Shown piece after piece: positions 1,373 through 14,107 of a DNA stretch of 16,217 nucleotides. The notes below the pieces were generated by a model. It saw nothing but the letters and a program-made list of their open reading frames with translations, was not told the DNA's origin and did not search any database. Origin of the DNA: Stephanodiscus triporus (lineage: Eukaryota; Bacillariophyta; Thalassiosirophyceae; Thalassiosirales; Thalassiosiraceae). The position numbers and the translations under genes are program-made. The DNA lies in the NCBI GenBank assembly GCA_036939755.1, contig JALLAZ010000386.1, positions 1 to 16,217 on the forward strand, in the 5' to 3' direction. Each line of letters starts with the position of its first letter. The first letter of the stretch is position 1.

Positions 1373-3100
1373 TCAATCTTTTTTCACGCCTCCCACAACA
1401 ACATCTTTCGAACTACTACTGGCAACTGCTGCCCTCTTGGCCTTCGGCTTACCGTTTCCCTTGTTGTTGGTTGCACTATCATCAACGCCATCGTCGATGC
1501 CGTCGTCCCTCTTTCGCTTTGTCGTTGTTTGCTTTGCTTTGGAAGGACCATCGCCGCCACCGACGCCACTTCCCCCCTTTTTCCCTCCCCCTCCGCCCGC
1601 GGCGGCGTTGGCACCCGCATTTTTCCCCTTGTTCGTCTTCCTGGGAGATGATCCCACCTTTGTCGTGGCATTCCTCTTCCTCTTCGCTCCTCCCCCCCCG
1701 CCACCTTCTTCTACCCCCTCGTCGTCGTCCGTTGTGGCCGTATCCCCCGTTTCGTCCTCGTCGGAATTAGCATCGTTGTTTTCGTCGTCCTCCTCGTCGA
1801 CCCCCTCAGCGGCCTCGTCCACGTCCTCCTCGTATTCGTCGTCGCGATCGTCGTCGTCGTCTTCGTCGTCGACCTTGGCATCGAAGAACCTGATCTTTCC
1901 CGTCAGGTCGAACCCCCACGCTCTCAGCGGTCGGACCAGATCGCGGAATTTCAGATCGCGCATCGTCGCGTCGTAGTCCTCCGCCGTCGCCCTCCCACCC
2001 TCGTCGGATTCATCGTCGTCATCGATGTCGTCGTCCTCCGACTCGTCGTCGCGACCATCGTCGTCGTCCGATCCGACTCCCCCTCCGTGGCAGAGGGCGT
2101 GGTAATAGTCCTCCTCCGCGTCGACGTCCATCGCATCCCGCCTGTACTCCTTCGCGGCGTCCATGTCCTCGTCCGTCAGGCGGAAGACGGCGGTCCCCCC
2201 CCCCGCCCTCCCCGCGATCGCGCCGATCGTCGACGAAGACGAAGACGAAGACGAAGACGACGAAGACGCCGCGCCTCCCGCTCCCCCTCCCTTGTTCCCC
2301 TTCTTCGATATCTCCCTCATCTGCCGTTCCGCCTCCACGGCGTCGGCGACGGCGGCCTCGGCCCTCGTCCTCCTCCTGGTCGTCTCCTCGCGGAACCTCC
2401 GTTCGCGCGTCCGCCGTTCCCTCATGACCCGCGCGCGGTGCCTCTTCCTCCTCCTCCTCTCCCTCAAAAGGGCGTCGTACCCCTCCAGCCTGTGATCGCG
2501 ACACGCCATGCCTTGAACGAGGACCGTCGCCAGGAAGCGATCTGCCATTGACGATAGCAGCAGGGGCACGGATTCGTCGAGGTATCCCACCCCCGATCGA
2601 TGTAACAGCCGACGCGAGAGGTTCGACGGCGTCGTCGGCCGGTAGCCGCGCGCGGGGGGCGACGGCGGCCGTTGTTCCGTCGACGGCCCGCGAGATTTCG
2701 ACGCGATCGTCGTCGACGTCGCGGTCGAGAACGACTCGGTCCGAGGACGGGCGCCTTCCGCGACGACGATGCCCGTCGTCTCGCTCGCCGCGCCCGCAGT
2801 CGCGGCGTCGTCGTCGTCGACGACGACGTTTTTCGACGATTGTCCCGTCCCCGTCATCCTCCTCCGCCCGCAAAGCAGCGCCAGGAATTTCATCCTCCGC
2901 GCGTCCTCCGCGGACGTCAGCTTCAGCGCCGCGGCCATGCGCCGGGCCTCTCCGTCGGACGGCCTTTCCGTCGCGGACGACGACGGCGGCGGAGGCGGCG
3001 CGTCATCGACGAGTCCGTCGATCGCGCCCCCGGGAGGAGGGGGGGGCGTCGTCCAATCGAGCGACGGCGCCTCGGCGGCGACGGCGGGGGCGGATTCCAT
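1373..3100 (-). CDS. Low-complexity acidic/basic nuclear-type protein, possible TAF10-like histone fold
   Basis: The frame encodes 575 residues from ATG at 3100; the frame stays open to a GTG at 3115, but ATG is the sensible start. Order: Pro-rich N-terminus; a candidate histone fold at about 160-205, with helix 1 around RRLLHRSGV, a loop with Asp, and long helix 2 around LLSSMADRFLATVL; an Arg/Glu-rich basic helix at about 208-265; a Ser tract near 280-290; FRLTDEDMDAAKEY near 306-319, which could be the third histone-fold helix; acidic tracts at about 340-370 and 411-465; and a Lys/Arg/Gly-rich tail with several NLS-like patches. The LxRSG...D...LLSxxAxxF pattern resembles TAF10 of TFIID/SAGA, but large insertions and bias make this tentative. 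It could instead be an unrelated acidic chromatin protein. The codons are extremely GC-rich, unlike neighbouring genes. It is divergent from the fusion gene at 3385. Confidence 0.65.
   Translation of the reverse strand: MESAPAVAAEAPSLDWTTPPPPPGGAIDGLVDDAPPPPPSSSATERPSDGEARRMAAALKLTSAEDARRMKFLALLCGRRRMTGTGQSSKNVVVDDDDAATAGAASETTGIVVAEGARPRTESFSTATSTTIASKSRGPSTEQRPPSPPARGYRPTTPSNLSRRLLHRSGVGYLDESVPLLLSSMADRFLATVLVQGMACRDHRLEGYDALLRERRRRKRHRARVMRERRTRERRFREETTRRRTRAEAAVADAVEAERQMREISKKGNKGGGAGGAASSSSSSSSSSSSTIGAIAGRAGGGTAVFRLTDEDMDAAKEYRRDAMDVDAEEDYYHALCHGGGVGSDDDDGRDDESEDDDIDDDDESDEGGRATAEDYDATMRDLKFRDLVRPLRAWGFDLTGKIRFFDAKVDDEDDDDDRDDEYEEDVDEAAEGVDEEDDENNDANSDEDETGDTATTDDDEGVEEGGGGGGAKRKRNATTKVGSSPRKTNKGKNAGANAAAGGGGGKKGGSGVGGGDGPSKAKQTTTKRKRDDGIDDGVDDSATNNKGNGKPKAKRAAVASSSSKDVVVGGVKKD
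2232..2267. repeat. In-frame GACGAA hexamer repeat encoding a Ser tract
   Basis: About four perfect GACGAA units followed by degenerate copies. On the minus strand these read as alternating Ser codons and encode the poly-Ser tract of the acidic protein. The wider 1750-2850 region is rich in GTC/GAC triplets. Confidence 0.75.
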
Positions 3101-3384
3101 CTCCTCACTGTTCACTAACGATAGTGGCTTTGATTGTGCTAAACATCGTATGGTATGTTACACGATAGGGGAATAAGTATGGTGCCACTTACTTACGACG
3201 TGGTATCCACAACGATATCGTATGGTACGGTATGGTACGTATGTAGCGTCCAACGAACGCAACCATACACCACACCCATCACACAACTACCTCTCATCGC
3301 GATCTCACTGACTCCAACCAATCCCACTGCACCAACAACTTCTCTCTCGGTCAAGTGATTCCATCGACTAAAATAAGAAAAGAT
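3101..3384. promoter_or_regulatory. Divergent promoter region with repeated GTATGGTAC words
   Basis: This 284-base space separates the start codons of the minus-strand acidic protein and the plus-strand fusion gene, so it must hold both promoters and 5' leaders. GTATGGTAC occurs twice in tandem (3220-3228 and 3230-3238), and relaxed copies GTATGGTA and GTATGGTG occur at 3148-3155 and 3177-3184. A C/A-rich stretch with CAACCAATC-like words lies at about 3255-3350, close to the plus-strand ATG. No canonical TATA box is evident. Confidence 0.5.
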
Positions 3385-6300
3385 ATGGCGCAACCACTAC
3401 TAGTTCTGCTCGCTCTGTTCACGGCCCGTGCATCATCTTTTTCTCCAAACCAGAGGCGACGCGCGTTCTGTGCTGAACATATTCTACAGAGTTCGCCCCG
3501 CCATCCTACTGCCATTTGCTCGACGATTTCACCCCGTCGGGATGCCGATGGAAAGGAGAAACTGCTGCAGTGCCAGGGTTGCGAACGAACATTCAAATCT
3601 CGAAACGCTCTATTTCGACATATTCGCGGAGACGACGAAGCTTCCATGGATTGTGCGATAGCTACACGAGCAAGTCCACTAGTAGAGGAAGAGTTGCTCA
3701 TGACCGCCGTTATTCGTTATGGATACTACGACGGAAATATCGATCGTTCGATGGATAGTAGTCACGCAACGAATGAAGTTGTGGCGAATATGATACACGA
3801 GGCCTTCGTTCAACACGTGAATACCTACCTCGATGGAGAGAGCGCACTACATCAACAGAATCTTGGAAGATCGAAATTTCGAGAGGGCAAGATCTTTTCT
3901 ACCACAGCCCTCTCTTACAGCAGTGCTGCTATCATGCGTCAGCCAGCTCTCGGACAAGACGAGGAGGTGGTGGGTGCAACTTCAGAAGTGCTGTCATTCA
4001 ATTATCGACTCACATGCAAACCCGCCACAATTACAAGGTGGAAAGAATACGCAAACGGTGGAAAAATACAGGAGTGCATACAAGCCTCTTTAGACAAAGA
4101 GAGTAGCCTCATACAAATTCAATTGCATCATATGGACGCACTTGTACCACGCTCATCCAAATTCTATGCAGAGAGAAGTGCCACCCAAAGAAGTTACACT
4201 TTTTTGTTGCCTGTTGAGTGGATTCTCCCAGGTGTTGTTGACGAAACTGAAGAAAATGACGGGAGGAGGTCCGATGCTATCGCCCAAGTTATAGATTGGG
4301 CGAAAATTTTATCGCAACGCTCCCTATTACATTCTAACACACATCAGCCACGAGCCGCTGGTCAAAAGAAGTTGGACTCTCCCGCAATTGTTCTAGAATT
4401 GAAGCAATCTCTGAAGGCTATAGAAAGCGAGACAGTTCCAAATAGGCGTTTAAGGCGACAGGCCGAAAGAAGCAAAGACAACGATGATGTCGTTTCTGGC
4501 AGTAATGAGTCCGTCGACTTGCATTCGAACGACACGCCCACTAGATTGAGTCATGGAAGATTCGGGCAGCTGTGGAGAAAGGAGAAGAAATGCTGGTCGA
4601 ACTTTTCGTGCTTGACTGGAATGGCTTCCAGTCCAGGATATGAAGCAGTCTGGAGAACGATGGACCGGGCTAAGATAGTCGGAGTCATTGATTTGAAGAA
4701 CGCCTTCAACGCGAATGATAAAAGTGGGAATGAATCGATGGATGATATACAAAACATGCATATAATTCTCGAGTTCAAGGCGGATGGCTTTGTAATTGGC
4801 CAGATTCCTCGTCTCATATCTGCCGTGGTTGCCATGACTAATGGATGGCTGCCAAAAAAATTCTTTTCTGTTGCCACGAGGCCTGAGGTATTCATGCCTT
4901 CGCCACCTCCGCCACCGTCTTTTCACAGACTGTATTACTTCCAGTCGGCAAGGTATCACTTCCACGAGCTTACTAGCAATGCTTACGTGGAAAATGACAT
5001 CTCGGGTGGATCTTTTGCCAGGACAATTCAGTATGCAGGATCGCAATCGGAGATAAAGTGGGAGGAACAGCTTCGACAGAACCTTAATTTAGGAGGAGCC
5101 TCATCAATCAACAGCAGAATGGAGAGGGAGTGGCTATTAGAGTTACGCAATGTCGTTTCACCTGACCTTCGGCAGCGTGTGGAATCTTTCGAGGCTGAAC
5201 ACCTTGTTGATCAATCTCAGTGGGAAAATCAAGTGCAAGAATCATCAAGTATTCTTCCTTTTGTTGAGACTGATGCTCCTGAGGGTGCCTTTTCGGTCAT
5301 CTTAGGCTTATTACGAGACGTTGTTGAGAATGGTAGATGGCCTGCCACTTCTGATGCTCGATCTCGTGTGATTAAGTCTCCAGGTGGCTCGTCAGGGAAC
5401 ATCCTTGCGACCAAGAAAAGAGCTCTTGCATCATCTTTTCCCGGGAGCTCCATCTCGTCGGGCTCGTTTACTGTTATTAATGAAAAAATCTGGCAAAGTG
5501 GCGAATTGCCACTTGGTAATGATTTGTTCCCCCAGTTGAGGAAAGCTGTGTTTGAGTTGGAAGAGGAAATCATACGTCAGATGAGTTCTCCTCTTCCAGC
5601 AGCCGATGGTATGAAACGAGGAGTAACATCATCTCTTCGTCGATCACCGTCAACGCACTGTGCTATAAATAGAAATGCTCAATTTACGCCTCACGTTGAC
5701 AGTGGCCGTGGTCAAGGACAGAGTGTCTCGTTGATTGTAGGGCTTGGAAATTACACGGGTGGCGACATCATCGTTGAGGGCAAGCCATATGATATAAGAC
5801 ATAGTGCGTTGGAGTTCGATGGCTGGAATCAACTTCACTGGACGTCTCCTTTTAAAGGAGAACGGTAAGATATTGACCCTTTGTTTTCATCAATAATGAA
5901 CACTATTCACTCACTGTCTTCTATTCGACTCTAACTGTCTCTTTTTCCAGTTACTCTTTAGTGTTTTTTACCCCTGAAGTGATGAAGAAAGAAGAACGCC
6001 AAGGGGATTCTCTAAACACACTTCATGACTTCCATGCAAACCGATTGGCCCAAGAACACTCCCAAACGATCCCATTCTTGCCTCCACTGCATTTTCGTCA
6101 CGACTCAACAGATGCTCTCGTAATCAACGAGTTGCTCGATCCGGCCAAGGGCAGCGCATATAGTCTGAAAGAGCATGTAGCACATACAATGCCGTCGGGT
6201 TTCTCGCTCACGAGTCATAATTGTATACTTGATGTTGGCGCGCACATTGGAGTGTTCTCTCGATTGGCACTGGCTGAAGGATGCCGCCGTATTATCGCCT

Positions 6301-6923
6301 ACGAGCCAGAACCTACCAATTTTGAACTTCTCAGTCGAAACTTAGACATTGTCCAGCCGAGTAATGTAACAACATCCTCCCTGCCGTCGATTGAGTTGCA
6401 CTCGGCCGCCGTAGTACATGGGCCTTCTGGATCACGAACATTAGTTCAAGCGAGGAACGAGAATAGTGGTAAGCAAAATACGTGGCGGCATTCACTAGAA
6501 GAATATTCTCAGTATGTTGACAGAACAACGACGCTACCTTCAGCTTTGCAAAAGAAAACGCTCGAGCGCTTTTCTGTTGAGTGTGTTTCATTTTTTTCCA
6601 GTCATGATGAGGGAAAACAGAACGGCGCGTTGGTACCAGGTATAACCTTTGTCAAATTGGACTGTGAAGGGGCTGAGATTGATATTCTCCTATCCTACGA
6701 AGCATCACAGCGGTCATCATGGTTAGATTGTACACATTTGGTCTTCGAATGGTCGTTCACAAAAGAACGACGGGTAGACATTTTTCACAAGGCAATGGAC
6801 AATTTGAAAGAAGCAGGGTTTGAAGTGTACTACGAAGGCATCGGGAGTTGGTGGGACACTGATGTAGGGACTTTGTGGCCGTATCCCAATGATGCAATCA
6901 TTTTCGCTGCATTGAAACAGTAA
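3385..6923 (+). CDS. Plastid-leader fusion: C2H2-like finger, TruA-like, 2OG-Fe(II) dioxygenase, FkbM methyltransferase
   Basis: Exons 3385-5864 and 5951-6923 join in phase 2 to give 1150 residues. ATG 3385 is chosen over an in-frame upstream GTG because it opens a signal peptide ending in ASSFSP (16-21), close to the diatom plastid motif ASAFAP. Domains: a CxxC-x12-H finger (63-79, fourth ligand unclear); a TruA-type pseudouridine synthase fold (about 107-526), with RYGYYDG, a FYAERSATQRSY/LLP strand (260-276), WSNFS, DGFVIGQIPRL and PPPPPSFHRLYYF; a linker; a 2OG-Fe(II) dioxygenase (about 633-837) with H770-V-D772, GGDIIVEG, distal H818 and R827 in GERYSLVFF; and an FkbM-type SAM methyltransferase (about 885-1145) with ILDVGAHIGVF (919-929), AYEPEP and VKLDCEGAEIDIL (1061-1073). 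The TruA catalytic GRTD appears as GATS (197-200), so that domain may bind RNA without catalysis. The role, stepwise RNA modification in the plastid, is inferred; the substrate is unknown. Confidence 0.85.
5865..5950 (+). other. Intron of the fusion gene (86 bases)
   Basis: The donor is GTAAGA and the acceptor is a pyrimidine-rich CTCTTTTTCCAG. Splicing joins CG to T and restores GERYSLVFFTPE, the expected end of a 2OG-Fe(II) dioxygenase core, and keeps the methyltransferase in frame. If retained, the frame reads CGG TAA: the arginine is kept and translation stops at once. Confidence 0.92.
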
Positions 6924-7181
6924 TTGAGAGTGAATTGTTAGGACAATCACGTTGGTGTTTTCACGCTCAATAATTCTCCCTTATGCCCTTATGTAAAAAC
7001 TTACTGGGTCATTAATACCCCTACAAGAATACTTTATCGCCAGGTCAATCTTACTGAGAAGCACATGGAAAAAAGGGATAACTTAGACATTATAGGATTT
7101 CAATTGGTGGACATCTAGTCACAAACCCTTTTTTACGAGTCAAGTTCAGTGAAATGTATTCTTTTGCACTACCATCATCCG
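6924..7181. other. Convergent 3' spacer
   Basis: This space lies between the stop codons of the fusion gene (+) and the EEP gene (-). It must contain both 3' untranslated regions. I see no gene, RNA or strong hairpin. Confidence 0.6.
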
Positions 7182-10928: not shown

Positions 10929-12624
10929 TTACGCTCGACCGGAGAGTGGCTTCAACTCCCAGTTGCATCCCGTCCCCACTTTGTGCATGTAAGAGAAAGT
11001 AGAAAACAGATTCTCCCAAATCCATGGATAATACGCATACTTAACGCCGTGTTTTGCGCAAATCTCTCGAACCTTGGGAGCAATGTATGGATACCAGGCA
11101 CTGCTCATACGAGGGAAGAGGTGGTGCTCAACCTGGAAGTTCAGTCCGCCAGTAAGATAACCAGAAATAGCACCTCCGTAGGTGGACGACGTTTCGACTT
11201 GAGACTTGAACCAGCAAATGGATTCGCCAGTCTTTTTGTATTCCGAGGTTGGATCGCGGTCGGAATGGATAAAGTTGTGAGACAGCGAGAAGAGAAGGCT
11301 TAGCGTAAGACTTTCGCTGATTCCCATGAGCATAATGATTCCAAAGGTGGCCCAACTCAATCCATTGTTAACGAAGGGGGAGTAAATATTCAAGAAAATA
11401 TACGAGGCCCTCAATGCCATGGCATACTTCCTCCTCTTGACGATATAGTCATTCTCCATTTGGATACCAACAAACTGCGCACCGCGTTGACGAAGATCCA
11501 TCACCTGGGGATTAAACACTGTTGAGAGCCAATAGAATCCGAGCATGAAGAGGAAGTAACCTCCCTGAAATTTGTGCCACCTTTTGCGAACAGCAAGGTC
11601 AGATGAGATAGGAGGGTTATGACGAACAACCAAGTCGAGAATCATTCTAAATAGAATCAAAAGAGAACTTACCACTTCCGTTGCGGGTGGCCGATGGGAT
11701 AATCGTTAAATGCGAACATGGGCTCCGCGCTGAAACTGTCGGGATCCTTCTCTGAGTGATTCGTGTAGGCGTGATGAGTCCAATGCTGCAGACGGAAGGA
11801 AAAGGCTGGACGTTAGATGGGATCACAAGGTCGAGCAAACAATAAATGATTCTAAGCGCCAAGGACGTACCTGTGCCATCCAATTCCATTTGTTGGAGCC
11901 GATAAGGTCGGTACCGAAACCCAAGAGGTCGTTAATCCAGGGTCGTTTGGAGGCGGCTCCGTGATTAGCATCGTGTTGAACGTTCAACCCGATGAATGCC
12001 TGCGCCACACCGAAAACTACGGCAGTGAATAAACCACTCTTATACCATCTGTCGTAGTTGAAAAAAGTTGTGGAGGTGGCGAAGGTGTATTGCATGAAGA
12101 AGAAGAGTGCAATGTAGAAGAAGGCACGGAAGAAGTAACCGGGGGTGCCAAATTCACGCCCTCGACGCACAATCTTGAAGACTTCTGATTTGATCTCCCT
12201 TTCAAAGGGGGTGTCAAACTTGTATCTAACAAACGTTAAAAAGGTAGGCGTGAATGATGAGGTCGTTGTTCGAGGTAAATAACTAAGTCACTCAATGAAC
12301 ACGAAACGCTTACTCAGGCTCGTAATCCACCACCTTCCCGACCATCATCATCTTCTCCAAATGCTTACCAGTGTGGTAAGGATGGATCATCTTATACTGC
12401 ACAGTCACGTCATTCCCACCGAAGAACTTGATCACCTCCCCACCCGGATGGACAAATTCGGCAATATCGTAAATGACTCCGTCTATGACCACCTCGGTCC
12501 CTTTCAGCGCCTTGAGAGATCGGAGGGATGATTGCGTCGCGGTATCACTGTTAACAAGATCTCCGTCATTGATCTTGGTTGCAATACGATTGCGGAGGAC
12601 GCTTGTGTTAGCGTTAGGTGGCAT
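10929..12624 (-). CDS. Cytochrome b5-fused front-end delta-5 fatty acid desaturase
   Basis: Exons 12624-12314, 12225-11871, 11785-11673 and 11580-10929 give 476 residues. All three introns (88, 85 and 92 bases) are GT-AG and in phase. The enzyme introduces the delta-5 double bond in C20 polyunsaturated acids on the route to arachidonic and eicosapentaenoic acid, normally in the endoplasmic reticulum. The N-terminal cytochrome b5 domain has HPGG at 59-62. The three histidine boxes are HDANH (188-192), HWTHH (223-227) and QVEHH (409-413), the Gln in the last being typical of front-end desaturases. Hydrophobic segments lie between the boxes. Delta-5 rather than delta-6 is chosen because long stretches match the Thalassiosira delta-5 enzyme as I remember it. 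ATG 12624 starts MPPNAN as in that protein; an in-frame upstream ATG at 12744 is less likely. Regiospecificity needs an assay. Confidence 0.94.
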
Positions 12625-13165
12625 TGTTGTGGGGTTATTAACGAAAGACTCCAATAAAAGTATGGTACCTAGGTAATGTGTGCTTTCGCCACTCCGATCC
12701 GCCAGATCAGCACAAAAAATCGTACCATATGTAATGTAGTACATTATTATTAATGTTGTATCGTATCTTCTCTTGCTCTATCTTAACTCTACGTCATAAG
12801 CTGTCGTAAGATAGAACCACGTCGCCGATCGCTGTGTCTCATCGGCGATCGAGTGTATGGTACGATAGAGTGTGTACGTATCTACCTAGGTAGTTTAATC
12901 GTAGAAGATTCAAGAGGATTCAACACGTGTCATTCACATCAGACAGAGGTGGGGTCGGCCGGGTCACACTGGACTCCACCGTAATCGCCTCCATCCTCAT
13001 GCTCACCGCCGACCGCCGGCCGCGTAAATTTTGATCCGTATTTGACTACATCTCTCTGATCCCGTTGATTCAAGAAAACTGGTCGGGCGCTCCAAGCAGA
13101 CCAAGGGAGTTTGGCTGGATTAGCAAGGAGAACTAAATAATAAGAGATCGGAGTCTACCGTATTC
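12625..13165. promoter_or_regulatory. Divergent promoter region between the desaturase and TLC genes
   Basis: These 541 bases contain no gene. They include GTATGGTAC at 12660-12668 and 12855-12863, its reverse form (GTACCATAT) at 12722-12730, an 8-bp inverted repeat at 12822-12848, an ACGTCA CRE-like half-site at 12791-12796 and a CACGTG E-box/G-box at 12924-12929. CRE-like and bHLH/bZIP sites are known to be used in diatoms; any function for these copies is inferred. Confidence 0.5.
12822..12848. repeat. Inverted repeat in the desaturase/TLC promoter
   Basis: TCGCCGAT (12822-12829) pairs with ATCGGCGA (12841-12848) around an 11-base loop. This could be a dimeric factor site or a hairpin. 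It lies between GTATGGTAC copies. Confidence 0.6.
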
Positions 13166-14107
13166 ATGTGCGGGGAACGCCAAGCCGACAAAACTCTACG
13201 GGAAGAAATCCCTTCCATTCTTCAGCCATGGATCTACCTCTACCGCGCGACACCCAAGATCATCATTCCAGGAACCAGTGTTGATATTTCCTTCTCTCTG
13301 CGCTGCGCTATCGTATTTTCTGCCCTTCGTTTTTCCTTCCGCCATGTTCTCTATCGGCTTGGATGGCCAGTGGGCGCATCTGACACATATTTTACATCGG
13401 CTTGCCTAGTCGCATTTTGCACTTCTTCTCTGATGCTGCCCGGATTGGCTGCGTTGCTACTCTCGCAGAAATTCGTGCCATCGGGAAGATTACAACCCTC
13501 TCCTCAGTGGTATCAAGATGCGACTCATGCGTTGATGGGGTTTTGTACGGCGTATATGATGTATGACTCCATCCTGGGGTATGTCGTCGAGACATGGCAG
13601 CCTGGAATCGGACCCGTCTTGTCTGCTGATGATTGGACTTATCTGATACATCACATATTGACGATCCTATACATGACTTCTGCGAGAATTGCCATGGCTG
13701 GACACATGAGTGCCATGATATTGATGTTCAATGGAGAACTCTCGGCTCCGATCATGAATTTGCATCTAATTCTCGAAAAGGCATCTGCTCAAGACTGCTG
13801 CAAAGGCATTACGTGGCTTCCTGCCATGTTTGCTTACAATGAACAAATCTTTTCCTTCGTCTACCTTGTATGTCGAGTGGCGATCTCTCCATTCGTAATT
13901 GCTTATGTGTCATATGATTTACTGCTCACGAAGAGTGGAAGGAAGAGCGTGCCAGTGTGGCTCTCGATTTCTTGGATGCCCATGTGCTGGGTAAGTGATG
14001 GGATGAATGTTCAATATAAATATACACCACTATTTTGATGCAATTCGATTACTCATGTCAATACCACTCCACATCACTTTCAGGGAGGTGAGAAAATTCA
14101 ATTGTAA
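13166..14107 (+). CDS. TLC (TRAM/LAG1/CLN8) domain multi-pass membrane protein
   Basis: Exons 13166-13990 and 14084-14107 join in phase 0 (donor GTAAGT, acceptor CATCACTTTCAG, 93-base intron) to give 282 residues, a normal size for this family. TLC proteins include ceramide synthases and lipid-sensing or lipid-transport proteins of the endoplasmic reticulum. Several hydrophobic segments are seen at about 39-56, 75-100, 120-140, 160-180 and 215-240, with a conserved-looking DDWTYLIHHILTILY (155-169) whose paired His is the TLC hallmark, followed by GHMSAMILMFNGELSAPIMN. It lacks a homeobox-like region, so it resembles TMEM56/TLCD-type proteins more than animal ceramide synthases. The short second exon (GGEKIQL) is the least certain part; without splicing the frame ends at 14038. 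It shares a promoter region with the delta-5 desaturase, which fits a membrane-lipid role. Confidence 0.8.

Follow-up and report, generated by a model that had tools for sequence, protein, structure and literature searches.

A Putative Nucleic-Acid Modifier Combining TruA-Derived, TET-Like 2OG-Fe(II) Dioxygenase, and FkbM Methyltransferase Regions in the Diatom Stephanodiscus triporus

Introduction

The stretch of DNA analyzed here, hereafter the window, comprises 16,217 nucleotides of contig JALLAZ010000386.1 from the diatom Stephanodiscus triporus, and contains on its forward strand a gene at positions 3385-6923 that encodes a single chain of 1150 residues. As judged from sequence comparisons, this protein most likely arose when a TET-like hydroxylase of nucleic acids acquired an O-methyltransferase: a putative plastid-type leader and a zinc-finger-like stretch precede a region related to the tRNA pseudouridine synthase TruA, a 2-oxoglutarate (2OG)-Fe(II) dioxygenase domain, and an FkbM methyltransferase domain. 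We propose, with a probability of about 0.4, that the protein is a multidomain nucleic-acid modifier in which recognition, TET-like hydroxylation, and FkbM-dependent O-methylation would be combined. The assembly holding the window consists of 21.65 Mb in 1324 contigs, and the genome contains a silicon transporter (758.8 bits) as well as 27 matches to the light-harvesting family, which points to a photosynthetic diatom; silicon transporters are known from some other silicifiers, too.

Gene Structure

The gene model is real and its coordinates hold, as seen from the translation, the splice join, and a shuffle control of the open frame. Exon 1 (3385-5864) begins at the ATG at 3385, exon 2 (5951-6923) ends at the stop at 6923, and the two exons, both on the forward strand, are separated by a GT-AG intron of 86 bases (5865-5950; GTAAG...TTTTTCCAG) lying inside the codon for R827. 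The spliced product joins ...FKGE-R-YSLVFFTP at this intron, and the restored reading, ...PFKGERYSLVFFTP, has ...PFQGERYSLVWFTP as its counterpart in a paralogue located on another contig of the genome (C137; described below).

Within positions 3301-7000, the longest stop-free stretch was found to be 855 codons, and the frame carrying the FkbM domain to be 348 codons, both exceeding the maximum of 287 codons observed among dinucleotide shuffles (n=300). The GC content at third codon positions (GC3) is even (0.44-0.45), with positions 5952-6128 showing the same value as exon 1 (0.44). Exon 2 starts with the last strand of the dioxygenase domain, YSLVFFTPE (5951-5978), which matches YSLVWFTPK of the paralogue, and continues through an open-frame linker (5979-6230; residues 837-920) to the FkbM profile match. 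Because the last dioxygenase strand and the FkbM domain lie in one open exon, the sequence is read as one gene, and a division into two separate genes was ruled out on the grounds that both parts share an exon and a frame. The single chain described in the initial annotation of this DNA is thus upheld.

That the fusion is an artefact, namely a chimeric contig or two genes taken for one, is considered very improbable. Such an artefact would fit the observation that the C137 paralogue lacks an FkbM domain and stops at the end of its 2OG domain, and the fact that the present model was built from genomic sequence only; but the frame would need to survive in a chimera, and the shared exon, the 348-codon frame, and the even GC3 all argue against it.

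FkbM Methyltransferase Domain

By its sequence, the C-terminal domain (6231-6824, forward strand) is certainly an FkbM methyltransferase, and contains the stretches DVGAHIG, YEPEP, and KLDCEGAE. The initially annotated assignment is supported by two family models, PF05050 (Methyltransf_21; E=6.6e-12, 46.3 bits against a cut-off of 22.7) and TIGR01444 (fkbM_fam of NCBIfam; E=1.4e-14, 54.8 bits against a cut-off of 37.7), both over their curated cut-offs. Weak side matches to Methyltransf_23 (E=0.033) and TRM5-TYW2 (E=0.069) were also obtained. FkbM enzymes form a diverse family of O-methyltransferases, and the domain in the window is full-length, as in other members. It differs from the family in being fused behind an oxygenase, and is weakly related to FkbM genes elsewhere in the genome: 10 FkbM family matches were found there, including that of the window and with none on contig C137, and a protein search with exon 2 of the window gave one further match (best E=0.038). 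A sequence search of the PDB with exon 2, or with the FkbM part alone, returned chance hits or none.

2OG-Fe(II) Dioxygenase Domain

The part of the dioxygenase region encoded by exon 1 spans residues 583-827 (5131-5864, forward strand), as delineated from identity to the paralogue (46-47%) and from profile matches in the PDB. The predicted iron ligands are H770 (5692-5694), D772 (5698-5700), and H818 (5836-5838), with R827, encoded across the splice, predicted to serve in 2OG binding. These HxD, H, and R residues were aligned among the window protein, the C137 paralogue, a stand-alone Tet-like 2OG gene on contig C1104 (L022 196-1203; NKN...HTDGGN...GFGDYTGGEL stretch), and a viral open reading frame (L028 1142-1768), and are in register with those of NgTet1, a Tet protein from Naegleria. 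In profile searches of the PDB, NgTet1 was ranked first by both the four-sequence profile (E=0.011) and the five-sequence profile (E=0.0041), and PiuC next by both (E=0.07-0.27). CcTet was matched by the four-sequence profile only (E=0.92-0.97), behind the unrelated protein YvoA. The noise level of these searches is marked by YvoA (E=0.5-0.74 with both profiles) and by transketolase (E=0.92 with the five-sequence profile), and therefore the CcTet match counts for nothing alone.

Given the retention of the four residues in register with NgTet1, the initially proposed identity as a 2OG-Fe(II) dioxygenase stands with good confidence, and its nearest relation is placed with Tet proteins with moderate confidence. 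The layout of H-x-D, H, and R is shared with the TET/JBP proteins, but the E values for NgTet1 are modest, and the likeness is one of sequence profile. TruA and FkbM parts are not known from TET/JBP proteins. An AlkB-type oxygenase, as in ALKBH8, was also considered and was rejected, with no support for it being found in the Pfam scans or the PDB profile search.

The viral open reading frame encodes 208 residues with no Pfam family matches and stands alone on contig IMGVR_UViG_3300017749_003563, and two pieces of a 2OG gene were found on IMGVR_UViG_3300044246_000721 (L027 2980-3174, near the start, and L031 2001-2231, in the last third). The C1104 gene, the viral open reading frame, and the pieces from the second virus are of the same 2OG type as the window domain. 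The viral relatives were found by alignment queries, with single-protein queries of the viral contigs giving no relative. No relative was found in the bacterial genomes with the 2OG alignment, and the phage records gave none at E<=0.01 for the viral open reading frame, whereas the window 2OG domain had a single match there, at E=0.8. Related 2OG proteins also matched PHROG families labeled "DNA endonuclease" (E=0.00018 and 0.0011), but this label was not adopted as an identification.

The C137 Paralogue

Searching the genome with exon 1 of the window gene led to contig C137, with E values of 1.3e-26 over residues 583-816 and 5.6e-5 over residues 19-129. The paralogous gene (L021 2467-5250) was modeled with five exons and 814 residues, in the order zinc finger, TruA-like part, 2OG domain, and stop, and without an FkbM domain. 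In this model the last intron is a guess, apparently of GC-AG type, and the start is placed at the ATG at L021 2467, with the frame being open further upstream. Comparison of the two proteins by BLASTP, with a database of one sequence, gave E=3e-45 over 460-836 of the window protein and E=3e-6 over the zinc finger. No third complete member was found in the genome in searches with two exons of the paralogue. A match of the linker preceding the 2OG domain of the C137 protein to L063 934-3168 on contig C67 (E=0.0155) is weak and was taken as chance; by eye, this last open reading frame resembles a cullin subunit of the anaphase-promoting complex.

The paralogue thus has the zinc-finger-like stretch, the TruA-like part, and the 2OG domain in the same order as in the window protein, but differs in having no FkbM domain and, in the model used, no signal-like leader. 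The pair formed by the TruA-like part and the 2OG domain therefore occurs in this genome without FkbM. The FkbM domain may be an addition to this core, or may have been lost from the paralogue. Since the oxygenase can exist without the methylation, it is natural, though unproven, to see FkbM as an add-on acting in a second step.

N-Terminal Leader and Zinc-Finger-Like Stretch

The N-terminal leader (residues 1-50; 3385-3534, forward strand) was delineated by hydropathy and charge. A hydrophobic, signal-peptide-like segment, LLVLLALFT, at residues 5-13 is followed by ASSFSP and a basic stretch, with a net charge of +3 across residues 19-55. A plastid-type leader, as initially annotated, is plausible: the hydrophobic segment and the charge are consistent with it, and ASSFSP, judged by eye, resembles the ASAFAP motif.

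The zinc-finger-like stretch (residues 62-90; 3568-3654, forward strand) is shared with the C137 paralogue. The match to PF00096 covers residues 62-81 and, at E=0.0013, falls under the Pfam cut-off. The putative ligands are C63, C66, H79, and C90 in the window protein and C6, C9, H22, and C30 in the paralogue, so that by eye the finger would be of C2HC rather than C2H2 type. The zinc finger noted initially is therefore kept as regards its ligands, with the type read as C2HC and the family match below threshold.

TruA-Derived Region

The likeness to TruA is carried by a C-terminal block at about residues 456-519 (4750-4941, forward strand), found with hhalign together with the paralogue. An alignment of the window and C137 proteins matched TruA with a score of 46.6 (probability 78.8, E=1.7e-5, 68 columns), compared with a maximum of 22.7 for column shuffles (0 of 200 reaching the observed score), 14.2 for the reversed alignment, and 15.9 for the 2OG part. 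With a prokaryote-only TruA profile, the probability was 64.1 for the whole piece and 79.6 for the C-terminal piece. The spliced C137 protein matched TIGR00071 (E=1.1e-7) and, as its best Pfam family, PF01416 (E=0.0067), both under the curated cut-offs, that of TIGR00071 being of the equivalog type. All detectable TruA likeness is confined to the C-terminal half.

TruA is not detectable in the would-be N-terminal, catalytic half (residues 107-290; 3703-4254, forward strand). Here YYDG (residues 114-117) and KFYAERSATQRSYTFLLP (residues 259-276) resemble TruA blocks by eye, and the latter was also the second-best hhalign hit, in the expected order and insignificant (E=0.32). By eye, the site of the TruA motif RTDxGVxA is occupied by AIMRQPALGQD (residues 182-192; 3928-3960, forward strand), in which the catalytic Asp is absent. 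RTD is present at all 15 TruA loci taken without a motif filter (11 bacterial and 4 of this genome; 14 as RTDxGV), and in neither of the two family members, the window protein and the C137 paralogue, with the whole chains examined. A motif-filtered TruA set also showed RTD in 12 of 12, partly by construction: 10 of the 12 had been picked by the motif, and the TruA of P. aeruginosa, which has RTDAAV, was thereby left out. The RTD aspartate is described as essential in TruA (PMC7822408). The region is therefore apparently TruA-derived but most likely no pseudouridine synthase, and an active synthase was ruled out by the lack of RTD. The initial annotation envisaged the TruA fold as a means of RNA recognition, and the loss of RTD, together with the unrecognizable catalytic half, fits a recognition-only role; the TruA part is thus probably a dead recognition module.

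Compared with TruA and PUS1-type tRNA pseudouridine synthases, the C-terminal half is alike, with the TIGR00071 match belonging to the paralogue, but both copies lack the catalytic Asp, the N-terminal half is unrecognizable, and a long stretch lies between the halves. RTD is retained at four other loci of the TruA family in this genome (L023, L024, L025, and L026, on contigs C419, C648, C10, and C65), so the window gene need not be the source of ordinary TruA activity.

Proposed Function and Alternatives

In the mechanism proposed for this nucleic-acid modifier, the zinc-finger-like stretch and the decayed, non-catalytic TruA module would bind a structured substrate and hold it in place; this substrate is most likely an RNA, for instance the stem-loop of a plastid tRNA. 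The TET-like 2OG-Fe(II) dioxygenase would then hydroxylate a base, or a methyl group on a base, and the FkbM domain would use S-adenosylmethionine to methylate an oxygen, in the simplest case that of the new hydroxyl. We infer the RNA substrate, the plastid location, the order of the steps, and their coupling: RNA is suggested solely by the TruA ancestry, and the plastid by the hydrophobic leader, the basic stretch, and the by-eye likeness to ASAFAP. The most specific form, a self-contained plastid RNA enzyme in which a dead TruA module docks RNA for the TET-like oxygenase and the fused FkbM domain O-methylates the fresh hydroxyl, giving an undescribed nucleoside (for example, a methoxymethyl pyrimidine), is doubtful in its full detail.

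ALKBH8, the precedent invoked initially, is fair as an analogy of how such a protein could work. Hydroxylation and methylation of a nucleoside are there carried out by one protein (PMC7694415). Like this modifier of tRNA wobble uridine, the window protein places a putative RNA-binding part ahead of a 2OG-Fe(II) oxygenase and an S-adenosylmethionine-dependent methyltransferase, all in a single polypeptide. Unlike ALKBH8, whose binding part is an RNA recognition motif, it has a TruA-derived binding part, an oxygenase that is Tet-like by profile and belongs to no Pfam AlkB family, and a methyltransferase of the FkbM family; the ALKBH8-type pairing of an AlkB oxygenase with a Trm9-type methyltransferase was not found in the Pfam scans. 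Kinship with the oxygenase-plus-methyltransferase nucleic-acid modifiers would thus be by likeness, not by membership. The architecture is undescribed in the titles and abstract openings of the papers listed (for example, 25 of 153, 10 of 103, and 10 of 200), among which few subscription journals were covered. No report of FkbM acting on RNA was seen among them, but this says little, as some of the listings nowhere named FkbM and another gave 12 of 34 papers. Computational surveys of TET/JBP architectures exist and may contain relatives.

Several observations weigh against the proposed modifier, beginning with its individual domains. No 2OG family was matched in Pfam at E<=10, the spliced segment giving only the unrelated FlaA at E=0.23, and no oxygenase was retrieved from the PDB with exon 1 of the window alone or with a three-sequence profile; even the NgTet1 match of the five-sequence profile is modest. 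For the TruA part, the window sequence alone showed no significant match to a 12-sequence TruA model (-0.7 bits), the score of its C-terminal TruA piece alone was reached by 1 of 100 shuffles, that of its piece 91-545 by 0 of 100 with a small margin (22.45 against 21.24), and that of the N-terminal half by 18 of 100 shuffles for the window, 77 of 100 for the paralogue, and 8 of 100 for the pair. A whole TruA fold is hence unsupported from the window sequence alone, and of the TruA-like domain that the initial annotation had placed over residues 107-526, the C-terminal half is retained by way of the paralogue and the pair, whereas a complete fold is not. A fold prediction for residues 107-526, set as a test by that annotation, gave a model of too low confidence to use; the two AlphaFold models made had a mean pLDDT (predicted local distance difference test) of 32.2 with two-sequence input and 36.0 with one-sequence input. 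The Foldseek search returned 359 matches at E<=10 and 0 at E<=0.001; TruA was absent from the 50 that were listed, and nothing is concluded from this list. Moreover, the FkbM fusion is known here from the genome of a single species, and DNA would also be a suitable target for a TET-like domain combined with a zinc finger.

The last point bears on a DNA-directed, TET/JBP-like oxidase, in which the zinc finger and the TruA remnant would bind DNA and a hydroxymethyl base would subsequently be methylated. The first solved relatives found by profile are indeed Tet-like proteins, and the zinc-finger-like stretch agrees with such a function, but the leader appears to be of plastid type, and the TruA-derived parts of known proteins bind RNA; we consider this alternative improbable.

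The coupling of the two reactions may also be questioned. In an uncoupled nucleic-acid modifier, the 2OG domain would make one mark and the FkbM domain would methylate another oxygen, such as a ribose 2'-hydroxyl, either on the nucleotide already marked or on one close to it. The C137 paralogue, with its TruA-like and 2OG parts and no FkbM, indicates that the oxygenase evidently can stand without the methyltransferase, and base oxidation and ribose methylation do occur on one nucleoside, 5-hydroxymethyl-2'-O-methylcytidine (hm5Cm; PMC7694415). Fusion behind the oxygenase on one chain favors sequential action instead, and we regard uncoupled marks as rather unlikely.

Finally, the substrate might be a protein, a glycan, or a small molecule, acted on by both hydroxylase and methyltransferase. 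The profile matches include the PKHD-type hydroxylase PiuC, and the diverse FkbM family is known from natural-product and sugar methylation; yet the core shared with the paralogue contains a TruA-derived module, whose use in modifying sugars or proteins is not obvious, and we give this possibility little credence.

Other Genes in the Window

Divergent from the fusion gene, on the reverse strand at window positions 1373-3115, lies a gene for an acidic protein of low complexity, which matches TAF10 below the threshold (PF03540, E=0.0001). Pieces of cytochrome b5 (PF00173) and of a fatty-acid desaturase (PF00487), also on the reverse strand (10929-12744), probably belong to one intron-containing front-end desaturase gene, and a TLC-domain membrane protein (PF03798) is encoded on the forward strand at 13166-14038.

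Concluding Remarks

Even short of the mechanism, the window gene and its C137 paralogue represent a diatom family with a TruA-like part and a 2OG domain that is undescribed in the paper titles and abstract openings covered. If the proposed nucleic-acid modifier is real, a former pseudouridine synthase would aim a TET-like oxygenase at RNA, and a single chain would both oxidize the target and cap the product by methylation. An as yet unseen organellar nucleoside would then be expected, one that mass spectrometry could look for directly.

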